Part shown: piece by piece, positions 24,084-54,932 of the stretch
Layout: each line of letters opens with the position of its first letter
Numbering within the stretch: the first letter of the stretch is position 1
From: Reyranella massiliensis 521
GTDB taxonomy: Bacteria; Pseudomonadota; Alphaproteobacteria; Reyranellales; Reyranellaceae
Length of the DNA: 64,000 nt
Assembly: GCF_000312425.1 (NCBI RefSeq)
Contig: NZ_HE997181.1
Coordinates: forward strand, 2,270,260-2,334,259
Direction of reading: 5' to 3'
Made by a program: the position numbers and the translations under genes
Notes under the pieces: model-generated
Databases searched by the model: none
The model's input: the letters and a program-made list of their open reading frames with translations, nothing else
What the model was told of the DNA's origin: nothing

Positions 24084-25643
24084 ATGTTTGCACTCACTCA
24101 GGGACTGCGTCGTGCCGTCCAGACTCGGCCGGACGGCATCGCGACCTCCTTCGCCGGGCGGCGGCGGACATGGCGGGAAAGTGCGGACCGCGTGAGCCGC
24201 GTCGCCGGCGCTCTATCCGCATTGGGCGTGCGCAGCGGCGACAGGGTGGCCATCCTGGCGCTGAATTCCGACCGCTATCTCGAACTGATGTACGCGATCC
24301 CCTGGCTGGGCGCGGCCATGGTGCCGATCAACACGCGCCTTGCCGCGCCGGAGATCGAGTACATCCTGAACGACTCCGGTGCCGTCGCTCTGTTCATCGA
24401 CACCGGCATGGCGCATCACCTGTCCGCGCTCGAAGGCAAAACTCCCGCGTTGCGCGAGGTCATGTGGCTCGACGACCTGCCGGGACCCGAGGGCATGTTG
24501 CGCTACGAGGACTTGACCAATTACGAGGCGATCGACGATGCCGGCGCCCGCAATGACGACCTGGCCGGCCTCTTCTATACCGGCGGAACGACCGGCCGTT
24601 CCAAGGGCGTGGTGCTCACCCACACCAATCTGGTCGTGAATGCGCTGAACGGCGTGGCCGGTATGGGTTTCACCGCGGACACCGCCTACCTCCATTCCGG
24701 GGCGATGTTCCACCTGGCCGACGGCGCCTCGACCTTCGGCGTCACGATGTCGGGCGGCCGCCATGCCTTCGTGCCGCGCTTCGAGCCCATGGAGGTCCTG
24801 CAGACCATCCAGATGGAGAAGGTCACGCACGCGCAGTTCGTGCCGACCATGATCAACATGCTGGTGAACCATCCGCAGTTCCGGGAGTTCGACATCGGGA
24901 CCCTGTCCTTCATCCTATACGGCGCCTCGCCCATGCCCGAGGGCGTCCTGCGCAAGGCCATCGAACTGATGCCGCGCGTCCGCATGATGCATGGCTACGG
25001 CATGACCGAGGCCTCGCCGATCGTCACCCTGCTCGATCCGCGCTACACGGTGCTCGACGGTCCTTTTGCCGGCCGTCTGAAGTCGTGCGGCAAGACCGTG
25101 CTGGCCTGCGAGATCAAGGTCGTCGATGCCGACCGCAGGGAAGTGCCGGCGGGCACCGCGGGCGAACTGGCGATCCGCGGCGCCAACATCATGAAAGGGT
25201 ATTGGAACAAGCCGGCCGAGACCGCCGCAGTGCTCGAAGACGGCTGGTACTATTCCGGCGATGGTGCCTACATGGACGAAGAAGGCTTCGTCTTCATCGT
25301 CGACCGGCTCAAGGACATGATCATCTCCGGTGGCGAGAACGTCTATTCGGCGGAGGTCGAGAACGCGATCTCGCTGATGCCGGGTGTCGCCGAGGTCGCC
25401 GTGATCGGCATCCCTGACGAGCGCTGGGGCGAGCGGGTTCACGCCATCGTCGTGGCCAAGCCCGGCGTAACGCTTGCGGTCGAAGAAATCATGGAGCACT
25501 GCCGCGAGCTCATCGCCGGCTACAAGTGCCCCCGTAGCGTCGATTTTCGTGACCATCCGTTGCCCCTCTCGGGAGCCGGCAAGGTGCTGAAGCGCGAACT
25601 GCGCGAGCCCTATTGGCGTGATTTTACCAAAGCGGTGAACTGA
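24084..25643 (+). CDS. Long-chain fatty-acid (acyl)-CoA ligase
   Basis: 519-residue adenylate-forming enzyme that activates a carboxylic acid as acyl-AMP and then acyl-CoA. Core motifs are present: LFYTGGTTGRSKGVVLTH (A3, near 156-173), GYGMTEASP (A5), YYSGDGAYMDEEGF (A7), DRLKDMIISGGENVYSAEVE (A8) and the catalytic Lys in SGAGKVLKREL near the C terminus. The acid cannot be predicted. It is followed by a second ligase 2 bases later. Confidence 0.92.
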   Translation: MFALTQGLRRAVQTRPDGIATSFAGRRRTWRESADRVSRVAGALSALGVRSGDRVAILALNSDRYLELMYAIPWLGAAMVPINTRLAAPEIEYILNDSGAVALFIDTGMAHHLSALEGKTPALREVMWLDDLPGPEGMLRYEDLTNYEAIDDAGARNDDLAGLFYTGGTTGRSKGVVLTHTNLVVNALNGVAGMGFTADTAYLHSGAMFHLADGASTFGVTMSGGRHAFVPRFEPMEVLQTIQMEKVTHAQFVPTMINMLVNHPQFREFDIGTLSFILYGASPMPEGVLRKAIELMPRVRMMHGYGMTEASPIVTLLDPRYTVLDGPFAGRLKSCGKTVLACEIKVVDADRREVPAGTAGELAIRGANIMKGYWNKPAETAAVLEDGWYYSGDGAYMDEEGFVFIVDRLKDMIISGGENVYSAEVENAISLMPGVAEVAVIGIPDERWGERVHAIVVAKPGVTLAVEEIMEHCRELIAGYKCPRSVDFRDHPLPLSGAGKVLKRELREPYWRDFTKAVN

Positions 25644-25645
25644 CC

Positions 25646-27178
25646 ATGCCCACCATCCCCTACTACGACTGGATCGCCCATCACGCCGGGCGGCGGCCGA
25701 AGACCCTCGCCGTCCACGATCTGCAGACCGAGCGCAAGCTCACCTATGCCGATCTCGACCGGCGCACCAACCGGCTCGTGGCTGCGCTGGCGAAGCTGGG
25801 CGTCACGAAAGGCGATCGGGTCGCCCTGCTCGCGCCCAACTGCCCTGAGTATTTTGAACTACAGTTCGCCTGCGGGCGCCTCGGCGCGATCATGCTGCCG
25901 CTCAACTGGCGCCTGACCGTGCCGGAGCTGGAATACATCCTGGGCGATTCGACACCGAAGCTGCTGGTGCACGACAGCAGCTTTGCCGAACAGGCCAAGG
26001 CTCTCTCGAAGAACCGGCTGGAGATCGATCCCGAGCGGCCCGACAGCGGCTACGAGCTTGCGCTCGCCGAAGCTGGCGATCCTCCTGCGCCCGAAGCGCT
26101 CACGCACGACGATATCGCCATGGTGATGTACACCTCGGGCACCACGGGCCACCCGAAGGGAGCGATCATCACCCATGGCATGGTCTTCTGGAATTGCGTG
26201 AACCTCGGTATCCCCGCCCTGATCACGCCGGAGACCGTTCAACTCGTGGTGCTGCCGCTGTTCCATACCGGCGGCCTCAACTGCTACGCCAATCCCGTCC
26301 TGCATGCCGGCGGCACCATCCTGATCATGCGCACTTTCGATCCCGGTCAGGCTCTCGACGCGATCTCCAACCCTTCGCTCGGCATCACGCATTTCTTCGC
26401 TGTACCGGCGCCGTACCAGTTCATGATGCAGCATCCGAAATTCCAGAGCGCCGATCTCTCCCGGCTCAGGATCGCCGGCGTCGGCGGCGCACCCTGCGCT
26501 CTCTCGATTCTCGAGACCTGGACTGCCCGAGGTGTGCCGCTCGTCCAGGGTTGGGGCATGACCGAGACCAGCCCCGCCGGCACGATGCTCGATGCAGCCG
26601 ACGCGATCCGCAAGCTGGGTTCGGCAGGCAAAGCTATGATGCATACCGCCGTCCGCATCGTCGACGACGAAGGCCGCGATCTGCCACCGGGCAGCATCGG
26701 CGAGCTGTTGATCAAGGGGCCCAACATCACGCCGGGTTACTGGAACAAGCCCGAGGCCACCGAGAGCTCTTTCACCGACGGCTGGCTGCACACAGGCGAC
26801 GCCGCACGGCAGGATGAGGAAGGCTTCATCTATATCGTCGACCGCTGGAAGGACATGTACATCTCCGGCGGCGAGAATGTGTATCCGGCCGAGGTCGAGA
26901 ACGTTCTCTTCCAGATCCCTCAAGTTGCCGATGCAGCCATCATCGGCGTCCCCAACGAGCGGTGGGGTGAAGTCGGCATGGCGATCATCGTGCGCAAGAC
27001 CGACCAGGATCTGGCCGAAGGCGATGTCATCCAGCACTGCCTCGGGCGCCTTGCCAAGTTCAAGGTGCCGCAGTCCGTCGCCTTCGTCGATGTGCTGCCG
27101 CGCAATGCCACCGGCAAGGTGCTGAAGCGCGAGTTGCGCGTTCAGTTCGTCGGCAAGAGTGCGCCGGCGATCAGCTGA
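25646..27178 (+). CDS. Acyl-CoA ligase (AMP-dependent synthetase)
   Basis: 510-residue paralogue-like neighbour of the upstream ligase. It has MYTSGTTGHPKGAIITHG (A3), WGMTETSPAG (A5), LHTGDAARQDEEGF (A7), DRWKDMYISGGENVYPAEVE (A8) and NATGKVLKREL (A10 Lys). The two ligases clearly differ, so they may act on different acids or at successive steps. Start ATG at 25646, two bases after the previous stop, indicating translational coupling. It converges with the cupin gene 11 bases downstream. Confidence 0.92.
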   Translation: MPTIPYYDWIAHHAGRRPKTLAVHDLQTERKLTYADLDRRTNRLVAALAKLGVTKGDRVALLAPNCPEYFELQFACGRLGAIMLPLNWRLTVPELEYILGDSTPKLLVHDSSFAEQAKALSKNRLEIDPERPDSGYELALAEAGDPPAPEALTHDDIAMVMYTSGTTGHPKGAIITHGMVFWNCVNLGIPALITPETVQLVVLPLFHTGGLNCYANPVLHAGGTILIMRTFDPGQALDAISNPSLGITHFFAVPAPYQFMMQHPKFQSADLSRLRIAGVGGAPCALSILETWTARGVPLVQGWGMTETSPAGTMLDAADAIRKLGSAGKAMMHTAVRIVDDEGRDLPPGSIGELLIKGPNITPGYWNKPEATESSFTDGWLHTGDAARQDEEGFIYIVDRWKDMYISGGENVYPAEVENVLFQIPQVADAAIIGVPNERWGEVGMAIIVRKTDQDLAEGDVIQHCLGRLAKFKVPQSVAFVDVLPRNATGKVLKRELRVQFVGKSAPAIS

Positions 27179-51892: not shown

Positions 51893-53299
51893 ATGGAACT
51901 TTGGCAGTACGACGCGACCGACCTGGCACGATTGATCCGAACAGGCCAGGCTTCGGCGCGTGAAGCGGTCGATTCGGTCCTCGGCCGCCTGCACAAGGTC
52001 AACCCCGCAATCAATGCCGTCGTCCGCGTGCTTGAAGACGAGGCACGCGCCCAGGCCGAGACGGCCGATGCCGCACAGGCGCGCGGCCATGCCCTGCCGC
52101 CGCTGCATGGCGTCCCGGTAACGACAAAGATCAACGTCGACCAGCAGGGCTTGCCGACCGACAACGGCGTCGTTCCGCTCAAAGACCTGATTGCCCAGGA
52201 AGACAGCCCCGTCGTGGCCAACCTGAAACACGCGGGTGCGATCATCGTCGGCCGCACGAACGCGCCGGCCTTCTCGATGCGCATCTTCTCCGACAATGCA
52301 TTGCACGGTCGCACGCTGAACCCGCGCGATCCCACGGTGACGCCGGGCGGCTCGAGCGGCGGCGCAGGCGCGGCCACCGCGACGGGTATCGGCTGCATCG
52401 CCCACGGTAACGATATCGGCGGCTCGGTCCGAATCCCGGCCTATTGCAACGGCGTCGTCGGCTTGCGTACAGGCTTCGCCCGCATCCCCTCCTTCAATCC
52501 GACCGCAGCGGCGACGGGACGCCCCATCGGCGCCATTCTGATGGCCGTGCAGGGTCCGCATACCCGCACGGTGCGCGATGCACGGTTGGGGCTTGAGGTG
52601 ATGGCGCGCGGGGATCGGCGCGATTGGCGCTGGAACGATGTGCCGATGCAGGGGCCGCCGCCGGCGCGGCCCATCAAGGTCGCGATCGTGCCCGAGGTGC
52701 CGGGCGGCAAGAGCCACCCTGCGCAGGTTGCCGCCGTGCGTCTTGCCGGCAAGCACCTGCAGGCAGCGGGCTATGTCGTCGAAGAAGTATTGCCGCCCGA
52801 CATCGAGCGCGGCGTCGAGCTGTGGCACCAGATCTGCGTCACCGATGTGATCGGCGGCCTGTGGCCGACCATGCAGAAGATGGGCGATCCCGATGGCATC
52901 GCCGCAATGAAGGCCTGGCTCGACATTCACAAGCCGGTCGATCTGCCGACCTATGTCGCAGCGCTGACCGAGCGCGAAGCGCTGGCCTATCGCTGGATGA
53001 CCTTCTTCCAGCAGTATCCGCTGGTCATCCTGCCGACCCTTTGCGACCTGCCGCCCAAACAGGTGGCTGACATCACGACCAGCGGCCAGAGGGAAGTGCT
53101 GGAGTCGATGCGGGCCGCCCTGCTCGCCCCGCTCCTGGGAATACCCGGCCTCGCCGTGCCGGTTGGCAGCCATGGCAAGCTGCGCACCGGCGTTCAGATC
53201 ATGTCGATGCGCAACCGCGAGGACCTCTGCCTCGACGCCGGCGAGGTGATCGAAGCCGCCGAAGGGATCGTGACGCCGATCGATCCGGTCAAGGCTTAG
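51893..53299 (+). CDS. Amidase (amidase-signature family)
   Basis: 468-residue serine amide hydrolase. The Ser-cisSer-Lys triad is Lys79 in VTTKINVDQ, Ser154 in TPGGSSGGA and Ser178 in DIGGSVRIP. Start ATG at 51893 has GCGAGGG upstream; its GAGGG could pair with CCCTCG at 51860-51865. Substrate unknown. Not part of a gatCAB cluster. Its end overlaps the convergent small gene at 53289 by 11 bases. Confidence 0.92.
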   Translation: MELWQYDATDLARLIRTGQASAREAVDSVLGRLHKVNPAINAVVRVLEDEARAQAETADAAQARGHALPPLHGVPVTTKINVDQQGLPTDNGVVPLKDLIAQEDSPVVANLKHAGAIIVGRTNAPAFSMRIFSDNALHGRTLNPRDPTVTPGGSSGGAGAATATGIGCIAHGNDIGGSVRIPAYCNGVVGLRTGFARIPSFNPTAAATGRPIGAILMAVQGPHTRTVRDARLGLEVMARGDRRDWRWNDVPMQGPPPARPIKVAIVPEVPGGKSHPAQVAAVRLAGKHLQAAGYVVEEVLPPDIERGVELWHQICVTDVIGGLWPTMQKMGDPDGIAAMKAWLDIHKPVDLPTYVAALTEREALAYRWMTFFQQYPLVILPTLCDLPPKQVADITTSGQREVLESMRAALLAPLLGIPGLAVPVGSHGKLRTGVQIMSMRNREDLCLDAGEVIEAAEGIVTPIDPVKA

Positions 53300-53579
53300 C
53301 AGGCGGAGCGTCGCGCGACGGCAGGTCTACCCTGGCGTCGCGCAGCTTGCTCTCCAGCACCGGGATACCGGCGCCGGTGTTGCCAGCCTTGCATTTTTCG
53401 ATGGCGACATTGACATCGACGGTGCCGGCCATCTCCCGTCGATGCGCCGGCGCAAAGGTGAAGTACTTCTTGATCAATGCCTGACAGTAGGCTGCGTCAT
53501 TCATCGTCTGGGCAAAGGCCGGTGCCGAGGCAAAGAGTGGGCTGACAAGTAGGCCGCTGACGAGCAGCCCTTTGGCGAT
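53289..53579 (-). CDS. Small secreted protein with no canonical start codon at its signal peptide
   Basis: From an internal ATG at 53504 only 71 residues are encoded. Upstream in the same frame is an excellent signal peptide: KGLLVSGLLVSPLFASAPA, then FAQT. The frame is closed by TGA at 53586-53588 (minus strand), and no ATG, GTG or TTG lies between; the best substitute is ATC at 53577-53579, with GAGGT five bases upstream. The mature part (TMNDAAYCQALIKKYFTF, two Cys) would be periplasmic. Either a rare ATC start, a start-codon mutation (pseudogene) or a sequencing error. Family not recognised. Confidence 0.5.
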   Translation of the reverse strand: MAKGLLVSGLLVSPLFASAPAFAQTMNDAAYCQALIKKYFTFAPAHRREMAGTVDVNVAIEKCKAGNTGAGIPVLESKLRDARVDLPSRDAPPAKP

Positions 53580-53662
53580 CGCGATACCTCAGCCGGCTGA
53601 CGAACAGCTGACAGACCTTTCATTGCAACGCACGCGTCCTGCGTCTACCCAGACTGCGAACC

Positions 53663-54694
53663 ATGACCGAAGCACTATTGCAGACGACCGTTGTCGGGTC
53701 CTACCCGCAGCCGGATTGGCTCGTTAACCGACAGATGTTGAGCAAGGTCGTGCCGCGCACGCGTCTCAAGGAACTTTGGCGCGTGCCCGAACCCTATCTC
53801 GAACAGGCGCAGGACGATGCGACGCTCCTGGCCATCCGCGACATGGAGCGTGCCGGCATCGACATCGTGACTGACGGCGAGATGCGACGCGAGAGCTACT
53901 CCAACCGCTTTGCGACGGCGCTCGACGGCATCGACGACGATCATCCCGCCGAGATCGTGAATCGCAGCGGCAACCGCACGCCCGTGCCGCGGGTCGTGGG
54001 CAAGATCAGGCGCAGCCGGCCGGTCGAGTTGCGCGACATGCAGTTTCTCCGTGCCAACACGGACCGATTGGCCAAGATCACCCTGCCCGGCCCTTTCACT
54101 ATGGGCCAGCAGGTGAAGGATGAGTTCTACAAGGACGCCGAGGCGATGTGCATGGACTATGCCGCCGCGGTGAACGAGGAGGCGCACGAGCTGGTCGCAG
54201 CCGGCGCCGATGTGATCCAGCTCGACGAGCCATGGCTGCGCAACAATCCCGAGGAAGCGCAGCGCTACGCCGTGAAGGCAATCAACCGTGCGCTCCAGGG
54301 GCTCACCGTGCCGACGGTGGTGCATCTCTGCTTCGGCTATGCCGCCGTCGTCACCGGGCTCAAGCCCACCGGCTATTCCTTCCTGCCGCAGCTCGCCGAT
54401 ACGATCGCCCAGCAGATCTCGATCGAATCGGCCCAGCCCAAGATCGACCTCGGTGTCCTGAAGGACCTCGCGCCAAAGAAGGTGATGCTGGGCGTCATCG
54501 ATCTCAGCGATCCCGAGATCGAGACACCGCAGAAGGTTGCCGACCGCATCCGCGCCGGTCTGAAGCACATCGGCCCCGACAAGCTCCTGCCTGCCCCTGA
54601 TTGCGGCATGAAATACCTGCCGCGCGCGACCGCCTTCGGGAAGCTCAAGGCCTTAAGCGAGGGCACCGCTATCGTTCGGAAGGAACTCGCCTAA
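53663..54694 (+). CDS. MetE C-terminal-domain-like (cobalamin-independent methionine synthase family) protein
   Basis: 343-residue protein with only the catalytic C-terminal barrel of MetE. LQTTVVGSYPQPDWL at the start and the zinc ligands His221 and Cys223 (VVHLCFG) and Cys314 (PAPDCGMKYLP) fit a thiol-activating methyltransferase; DVIQLDEPWL also matches. It lacks the N-terminal folate-binding barrel, so it is not MetE proper. Relatives may transfer methyl groups from other donors to a thiol. No partner is visible; a second MetE-like protein lies at 58904-59947. Confidence 0.85.
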   Translation: MTEALLQTTVVGSYPQPDWLVNRQMLSKVVPRTRLKELWRVPEPYLEQAQDDATLLAIRDMERAGIDIVTDGEMRRESYSNRFATALDGIDDDHPAEIVNRSGNRTPVPRVVGKIRRSRPVELRDMQFLRANTDRLAKITLPGPFTMGQQVKDEFYKDAEAMCMDYAAAVNEEAHELVAAGADVIQLDEPWLRNNPEEAQRYAVKAINRALQGLTVPTVVHLCFGYAAVVTGLKPTGYSFLPQLADTIAQQISIESAQPKIDLGVLKDLAPKKVMLGVIDLSDPEIETPQKVADRIRAGLKHIGPDKLLPAPDCGMKYLPRATAFGKLKALSEGTAIVRKELA

Positions 54695-54932
54695 CGGGCT
54701 CTGACCGTGCCGTCGGGGGAAACGGTGATGTTTTTCTGGATGCCATTCTGCGTCGCCTTGCCGGTCCACTGACCATCGGGCCCGCGACGCAGGTTCTGGA
54801 CGTTCCCATAGTGCAGCGATTGCAAGTGCTGCTTCACGCCGGCGGTCCCTGCCGTGCTGGCAGGCGGCGGGGGCGTCTGCGCTGCCGCAGCGCCGTCACC
54901 AGCAGCACGACCAAGGCCGCTATCGTCTTCAC
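54691..54932 (-). pseudogene. Small secreted PepSY-like protein, frameshifted in its signal peptide
   Basis: A GTG start at 54932 overlaps the amidohydrolase stop (GTGA). It encodes a signal peptide VKTIAALVVLLVTAL. The expected continuation, AAAQTPPPPASTAG, then VKQHLQSLHYGNVQNLRRG and a KNITVSPDG end, lies in the neighbouring frame, to the stop at 54691-54693. One extra G near 54884-54892 would restore the frame. Seen directly: intact halves in two frames. A sequencing error or a recent mutation are both possible. The mature part resembles PepSY-like small secreted proteins. Confidence 0.6.

Follow-up and report, generated by a model that had tools for sequence, protein, structure and literature searches.

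Start-loss alleles and young pseudogenes are a known kind among bacterial genes, recognisable by a frame that is intact save for its start. A different kind of exception is represented by genes that use ATT or ATC as their start codon, infC being an example; in E. coli, ATC is very weak in this role. How, then, is a gene to be read that encodes a signal peptide and a mature protein in one frame with no standard start codon in front of them? Such a gene lies on the minus strand of the window, the 64,000-nucleotide stretch of Reyranella massiliensis 521 analysed here, itself part of a 5.79-Mb single-contig assembly (G000). Like a start-loss allele, it has relatives that are intact at the same place and a frame with nothing wrong apart from the start, but, unlike in young pseudogenes, its remaining coding region shows no decay. 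With infC-like genes it shares a Shine-Dalgarno-like box followed, at normal spacing, by an isoleucine codon, but this ATC is not conserved as a start, since the two nearest orthologues have ATG. Finally, its signal peptide, its two cysteines and its GIPVLE block are those of a family of exported proteins, called here the YC/GIP family, from which it differs by being without the standard start found in 25 of 25 recovered sequences. The features on which the analysis turns are these:

53289–53504, minus strand: mature part, 71 codons from the first in-frame ATG plus the stop (open reading frame and orthologue comparison)
53505–53579, minus strand: signal-peptide stretch without ATG, GTG or TTG, IAKGLLVSGLLVSPLFASAPAFAQT (sequence; cleavage site placed by eye)
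53577–53579, minus strand: second ATC, six bases from GAGGT and the best candidate for a non-canonical start (sequence)
53583–53585, minus strand: first ATC, abutting GAGGT with no spacer (sequence)
53586–53590, minus strand: GAGGT, Shine-Dalgarno-like, GAGAT in both near orthologues (sequence and alignment)
53589–53591, minus strand: in-frame TGA that closes the frame upstream (sequence)
53580–53583, minus strand: position of the 14-base gap seen against the two nearest orthologues, whose ATG codons fall here, the breakpoint being ambiguous by a few bases (alignment)
53501–53623, minus strand: 40-codon frame that overlaps the gene, its stop and the ATG at 53504 sharing bases as ATGA (open reading frame and sequence)

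Signal peptide and mature part occupy one minus-strand frame, which runs from the TGA at 53591–53589 to the stop at 53291–53289. After the TGA the codons read GGT, ATC (53585–53583), GCG, ATC (53579–53577), GCC AAA GGG and CTG (53567–53565), followed by the remaining signal peptide LLVSGLLVSPLFASAPAFA, then QT and the ATG at 53504–53502. A check of this interval for ATG, GTG, TTG, CTG, ATC, ATT and ATA returned the two ATC codons and the one CTG only; ATG, GTG and TTG are absent, and 53504 is the first standard start. This agrees with the original prediction, which had placed an in-frame signal peptide without a usable start between the TGA and the first ATG. It had also pointed to ATC in the start position after GAGGT, which holds insofar as ATC is there, in two copies; but the first has no spacer and it is the second that lies six bases away. 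By eye, the encoded N-terminus has a single lysine in its n-region, then a hydrophobic core and the cleavage motif A-F-A; this signal peptide precedes the YC motif when judged by eye against the orthologues. The conserved YC, the second cysteine and the GIPxLE block are all present in the single open frame. What is offered for starting it is ATC, ATC and CTG, and then an ATG five codons before YC. Is there a start further upstream? The 23 codons before the TGA contain one GTG (by eye), which the TGA cuts off, and a longer upstream start was rejected on this ground. The overlapping 40-codon frame was also considered as the true N-terminus, reached by a frameshift, and was rejected because both near relatives, too, have this upstream ATG out of frame; from that ATG, the relatives' frame stops four bases further on. 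RNA structure around the start site is no more stable than that of shuffled sequences (z −0.17), and a scan of 53200–53800 for promoters and terminators found 0. As for its neighbours, the gene converges downstream on an amidase gene (51893–53299, plus strand), which it overlaps by 11 bases, and diverges upstream from a gene with a methionine-synthase-like domain (53663–54694, plus strand).

What do relatives have at this place? A search of 64 other genomes of the genus (E up to 1e-18) gave matches in five, of which three were taken as orthologues, namely G035 (90%), G071 (87%) and G063 (72%), all metagenome-assembled genomes, with the gene on contigs L031, L032 and L033, respectively; the matches in G064 (52%) and G074 (55%) were taken as family members. 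G035 and G071 preserve the order of the sequence across most of the window. Over signal peptide and mature part together, identity to the two nearest orthologues is 90% and 86%. Opposite GGT-ATC-GCG-ATC, L031 and L032 are 14 bases longer and have two in-frame ATGs, and both encode the same signal peptide behind ATG. With affine gap costs, the difference is one 14-base gap at 53581–53583 against both near relatives, which points to loss of the start by a deletion that neither relative shares. The GAGAT-to-GAGGT change is private as well, both near orthologues keeping GAGAT. In the third orthologue, L033, in-frame ATGs precede the YC motif by 52 and 60 codons; its start region is too diverged to align, so the gap comparison comprises two orthologues. 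A mutated start, one of three options raised by the original prediction, is thus the best supported of them, but the start was lost by the 14-base deletion and not by a base change from ATG to ATC. Such a point mutation was rejected: the relatives show a gap, and their second ATG aligns with a GCG codon, which means that the ATC does not derive from a mutated ATG. Nor do the homologues begin at 53504 without a signal peptide, the finding that would have spoken against a lost start: each of the two nearest orthologues has its signal peptide behind ATGs, and most members of the family shown carry one too. How unusual is a deletion of this size? Indels were surveyed in 164,000 bases of G000, made up of the window and the 100 kb that follow it; the aligned part is 115,122 bases for G035 and 153,895 for G071. 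An indel was counted only if it had the same size and place against both relatives, overlapping repeat alignments being dropped. There are 39 such indels; the 14-base gap is the largest, and the next are of 9 and 7 bases. A repeat lies within the surveyed sequence at 25120–27140 of the window, with secondary alignments between about 25.1–25.6 kb and 26.7–27.1 kb.

The pattern of substitutions offers a view of how the gene has fared on its own branch. A change was called private where one of the three sequences (the window, G035 and G071) differs and the other two agree, and the signal part scored was the last 20 signal codons, with the first five left out. In these 20 codons the window has two synonymous and no nonsynonymous private changes, and in the mature part six synonymous and three nonsynonymous, so that 8 of 11 are synonymous in total; G035 and G071 together have 26 synonymous and 16 nonsynonymous ones. 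Three or fewer nonsynonymous changes of 11 would have a probability of 0.0013–0.0035 without constraint, given a neutral nonsynonymous share of 0.71–0.75. The likelihood peaks at no neutral time on this branch and drops about ninefold when half of it is taken as neutral. Since the private changes are mostly synonymous, either the start would have been lost recently or the gene would still be used; the counts are small, and they are as compatible with continued use of the gene as with a recent loss.

The family to which this copy belongs is large and uncharacterised, and consists of small exported proteins. Its pattern is YC...C..G...GIP.LE...LP.R, that is, YC, a second cysteine, then GIPxLE and LPxR. 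Matches (E up to 0.001, single-sequence query) were found in 37 of 61 genomes: every one of the 37 genomes of the genus searched has them, from 2 to 14 per genome, and none of the 24 from other genera does, where distant members could be missed by a query of this type. The organism's own genome has six, the gene under study included. Four of the five paralogues were examined, and three were recovered as open frames, all with an ATG at least 28 codons upstream of YC. Start codons were surveyed at 33 loci with orthologues or family members. A motif search recovered 25 sequences from 24 of these loci, including the three orthologues. In each of the 25, an ATG, GTG or TTG stands in frame 20 or more codons ahead of YC, and the gene under study has none; the nine loci unrecovered by motif have an ATG, GTG or TTG near the match, sometimes inside the signal peptide. 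What might these proteins do? Two members, L028 (1498–2127, minus strand) and L029 (1510–2145, minus strand), resemble lipoproteins at the N-terminus (by eye) and carry an OmpA domain (Pfam, E 3.9e-19 and 8.3e-20 in these two), followed by the YC/GIP module; weak CpaD matches in both are below the cut-off. A paralogue in the organism's own genome (L075, minus strand) has the same OmpA-type layout by eye. That the module follows an OmpA domain in lipoprotein-like members suggests that it works in the cell envelope. For the protein itself, Pfam gives no family at E 0.001, and the sole NCBIfam match is PatX (E 0.13, residues 2–25), far below the cut-off. A search by sequence found no solved relatives up to E 1. 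The structure model, built from four sequences, has three helices with a mean pLDDT of 72.1, and a fold search of the PDB with this model gave no confident match (best E 3.1).

Taken together, these comparisons make it somewhat better than an even bet that this is an ordinary small exported-protein gene that recently lost its translation start to a 14-base deletion in this genome, and that would now be silenced or nearly so. The deletion is most likely a real, if ordinary, event, with an error of assembly or consensus as the main alternative. Under such an error the organism would have an ordinary ATG and the gap would exist in the assembly only, which we consider unlikely although several observations fit it. 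The gene is otherwise intact, and a neighbouring gene about 1.3 kb away has a private one-base deletion too. In addition, the 16S rRNA gene had no match in the 5.79-Mb contig of G000, in a search whose control matched in 9 of 14 genomes; the gene is either missing or masked, and the assembly would accordingly be incomplete or masked. On the other hand, a clean loss of 14 bases with normal flanks is not typical of homopolymer errors, and broken genes are not in excess. Among genes intact in both relatives, a mechanical survey flagged 4 of 92 as frame-broken in this genome. Run in reverse, it flagged 6 of 91 for G035 and, depending on the reference, 7 of 90 or 5 of 88 for G071. These numbers serve as baselines only, since the genes were picked by a simple coding filter that lets doubtful frames through. 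Two of the 92 were flagged as start-less, with seven more set aside for low coverage; the two are the gene under study and the one at 53663, the latter an alignment artefact with its ATG present. Reverse tests gave two absent starts in G035 (34 set aside) and three per reference in G071 (four set aside each). Judged against this baseline, an error becomes less likely. The neighbour mentioned above is a second small secreted-protein gene (54691–54932, minus strand, 82 codons with its stop), intact in G035 and G071 and with a GTG start in the window. Its private deletion is near 54897, inside the signal peptide, and leaves the mature part out of frame; among 65 genomes of the genus, 34 have a match to this mature part, the organism's own included. 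Two neighbouring exported-protein genes with damaged N-termini may reflect chance or a local sequence error.

If the deletion is real, is the gene still translated? It could work from the second ATC (53579–53577), with GAGGT six bases upstream, and its precursor would then begin M-AKGLLVSG, near the second ATG start of the orthologues. The spacing is a normal ribosome-binding distance, GAGGT is a better Shine-Dalgarno match than the GAGAT it replaced on this branch alone, and the branch is constrained, the amino acids of the last 20 signal codons being free of private changes. We nevertheless hold a gene working in this way to be doubtful: the weakness of ATC starts in E. coli counts against it, a near-cognate codon within reach of a purine-rich box should be frequent by chance, and the family otherwise has a standard start available in every recovered sequence. 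The position of GAGGT points to rescue, although it concerns a single base and may be chance, and weak initiation at 53579 is possible. A fuller version, in which the ATG was lost and GAGAT became GAGGT (earlier, later or at the same time), placing a stronger ribosome-binding box before the ATC and amounting to a natural recent switch to a secreted protein made from an isoleucine start, seems the least probable of all. Hardly better are the prospects of translation from the ATG at 53504, perhaps coupled by stop and start (ATGA) to the 40-codon frame, which would yield a cytosolic product of 71 amino acids. The deletion does bring the stop of the upstream frame onto this ATG, at +1 vs +5 in L031 and L032, but the overlap is probably chance. 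By eye, no ribosome-binding site is evident before 53504 or before 53623, the family is mostly exported, and its two conserved cysteines would suit an oxidising compartment.

It therefore seems reasonable to return to the recent loss of the start as the preferred explanation and to ask what it would entail. Before the deletion, the gene would have encoded an ordinary secreted protein, exported via its signal peptide. After it, the precursor has no standard start and its full-length form would be made hardly or not at all, so that useful amounts of the protein would probably no longer reach the periplasm. Other family members kept in the genome may make this loss tolerable. Because the remaining coding region is undecayed, the gene would stand at the very beginning of the path to a pseudogene, if it is on that path, and it would be a clear case of start-codon loss caught before decay of the coding region. 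It also carries a warning for annotation: with 53504 as the first standard start, an exported protein would be filed as cytosolic. Should the ATC be used after all, the locus would be a natural test of how a ribosome-binding box can rescue a near-cognate start.
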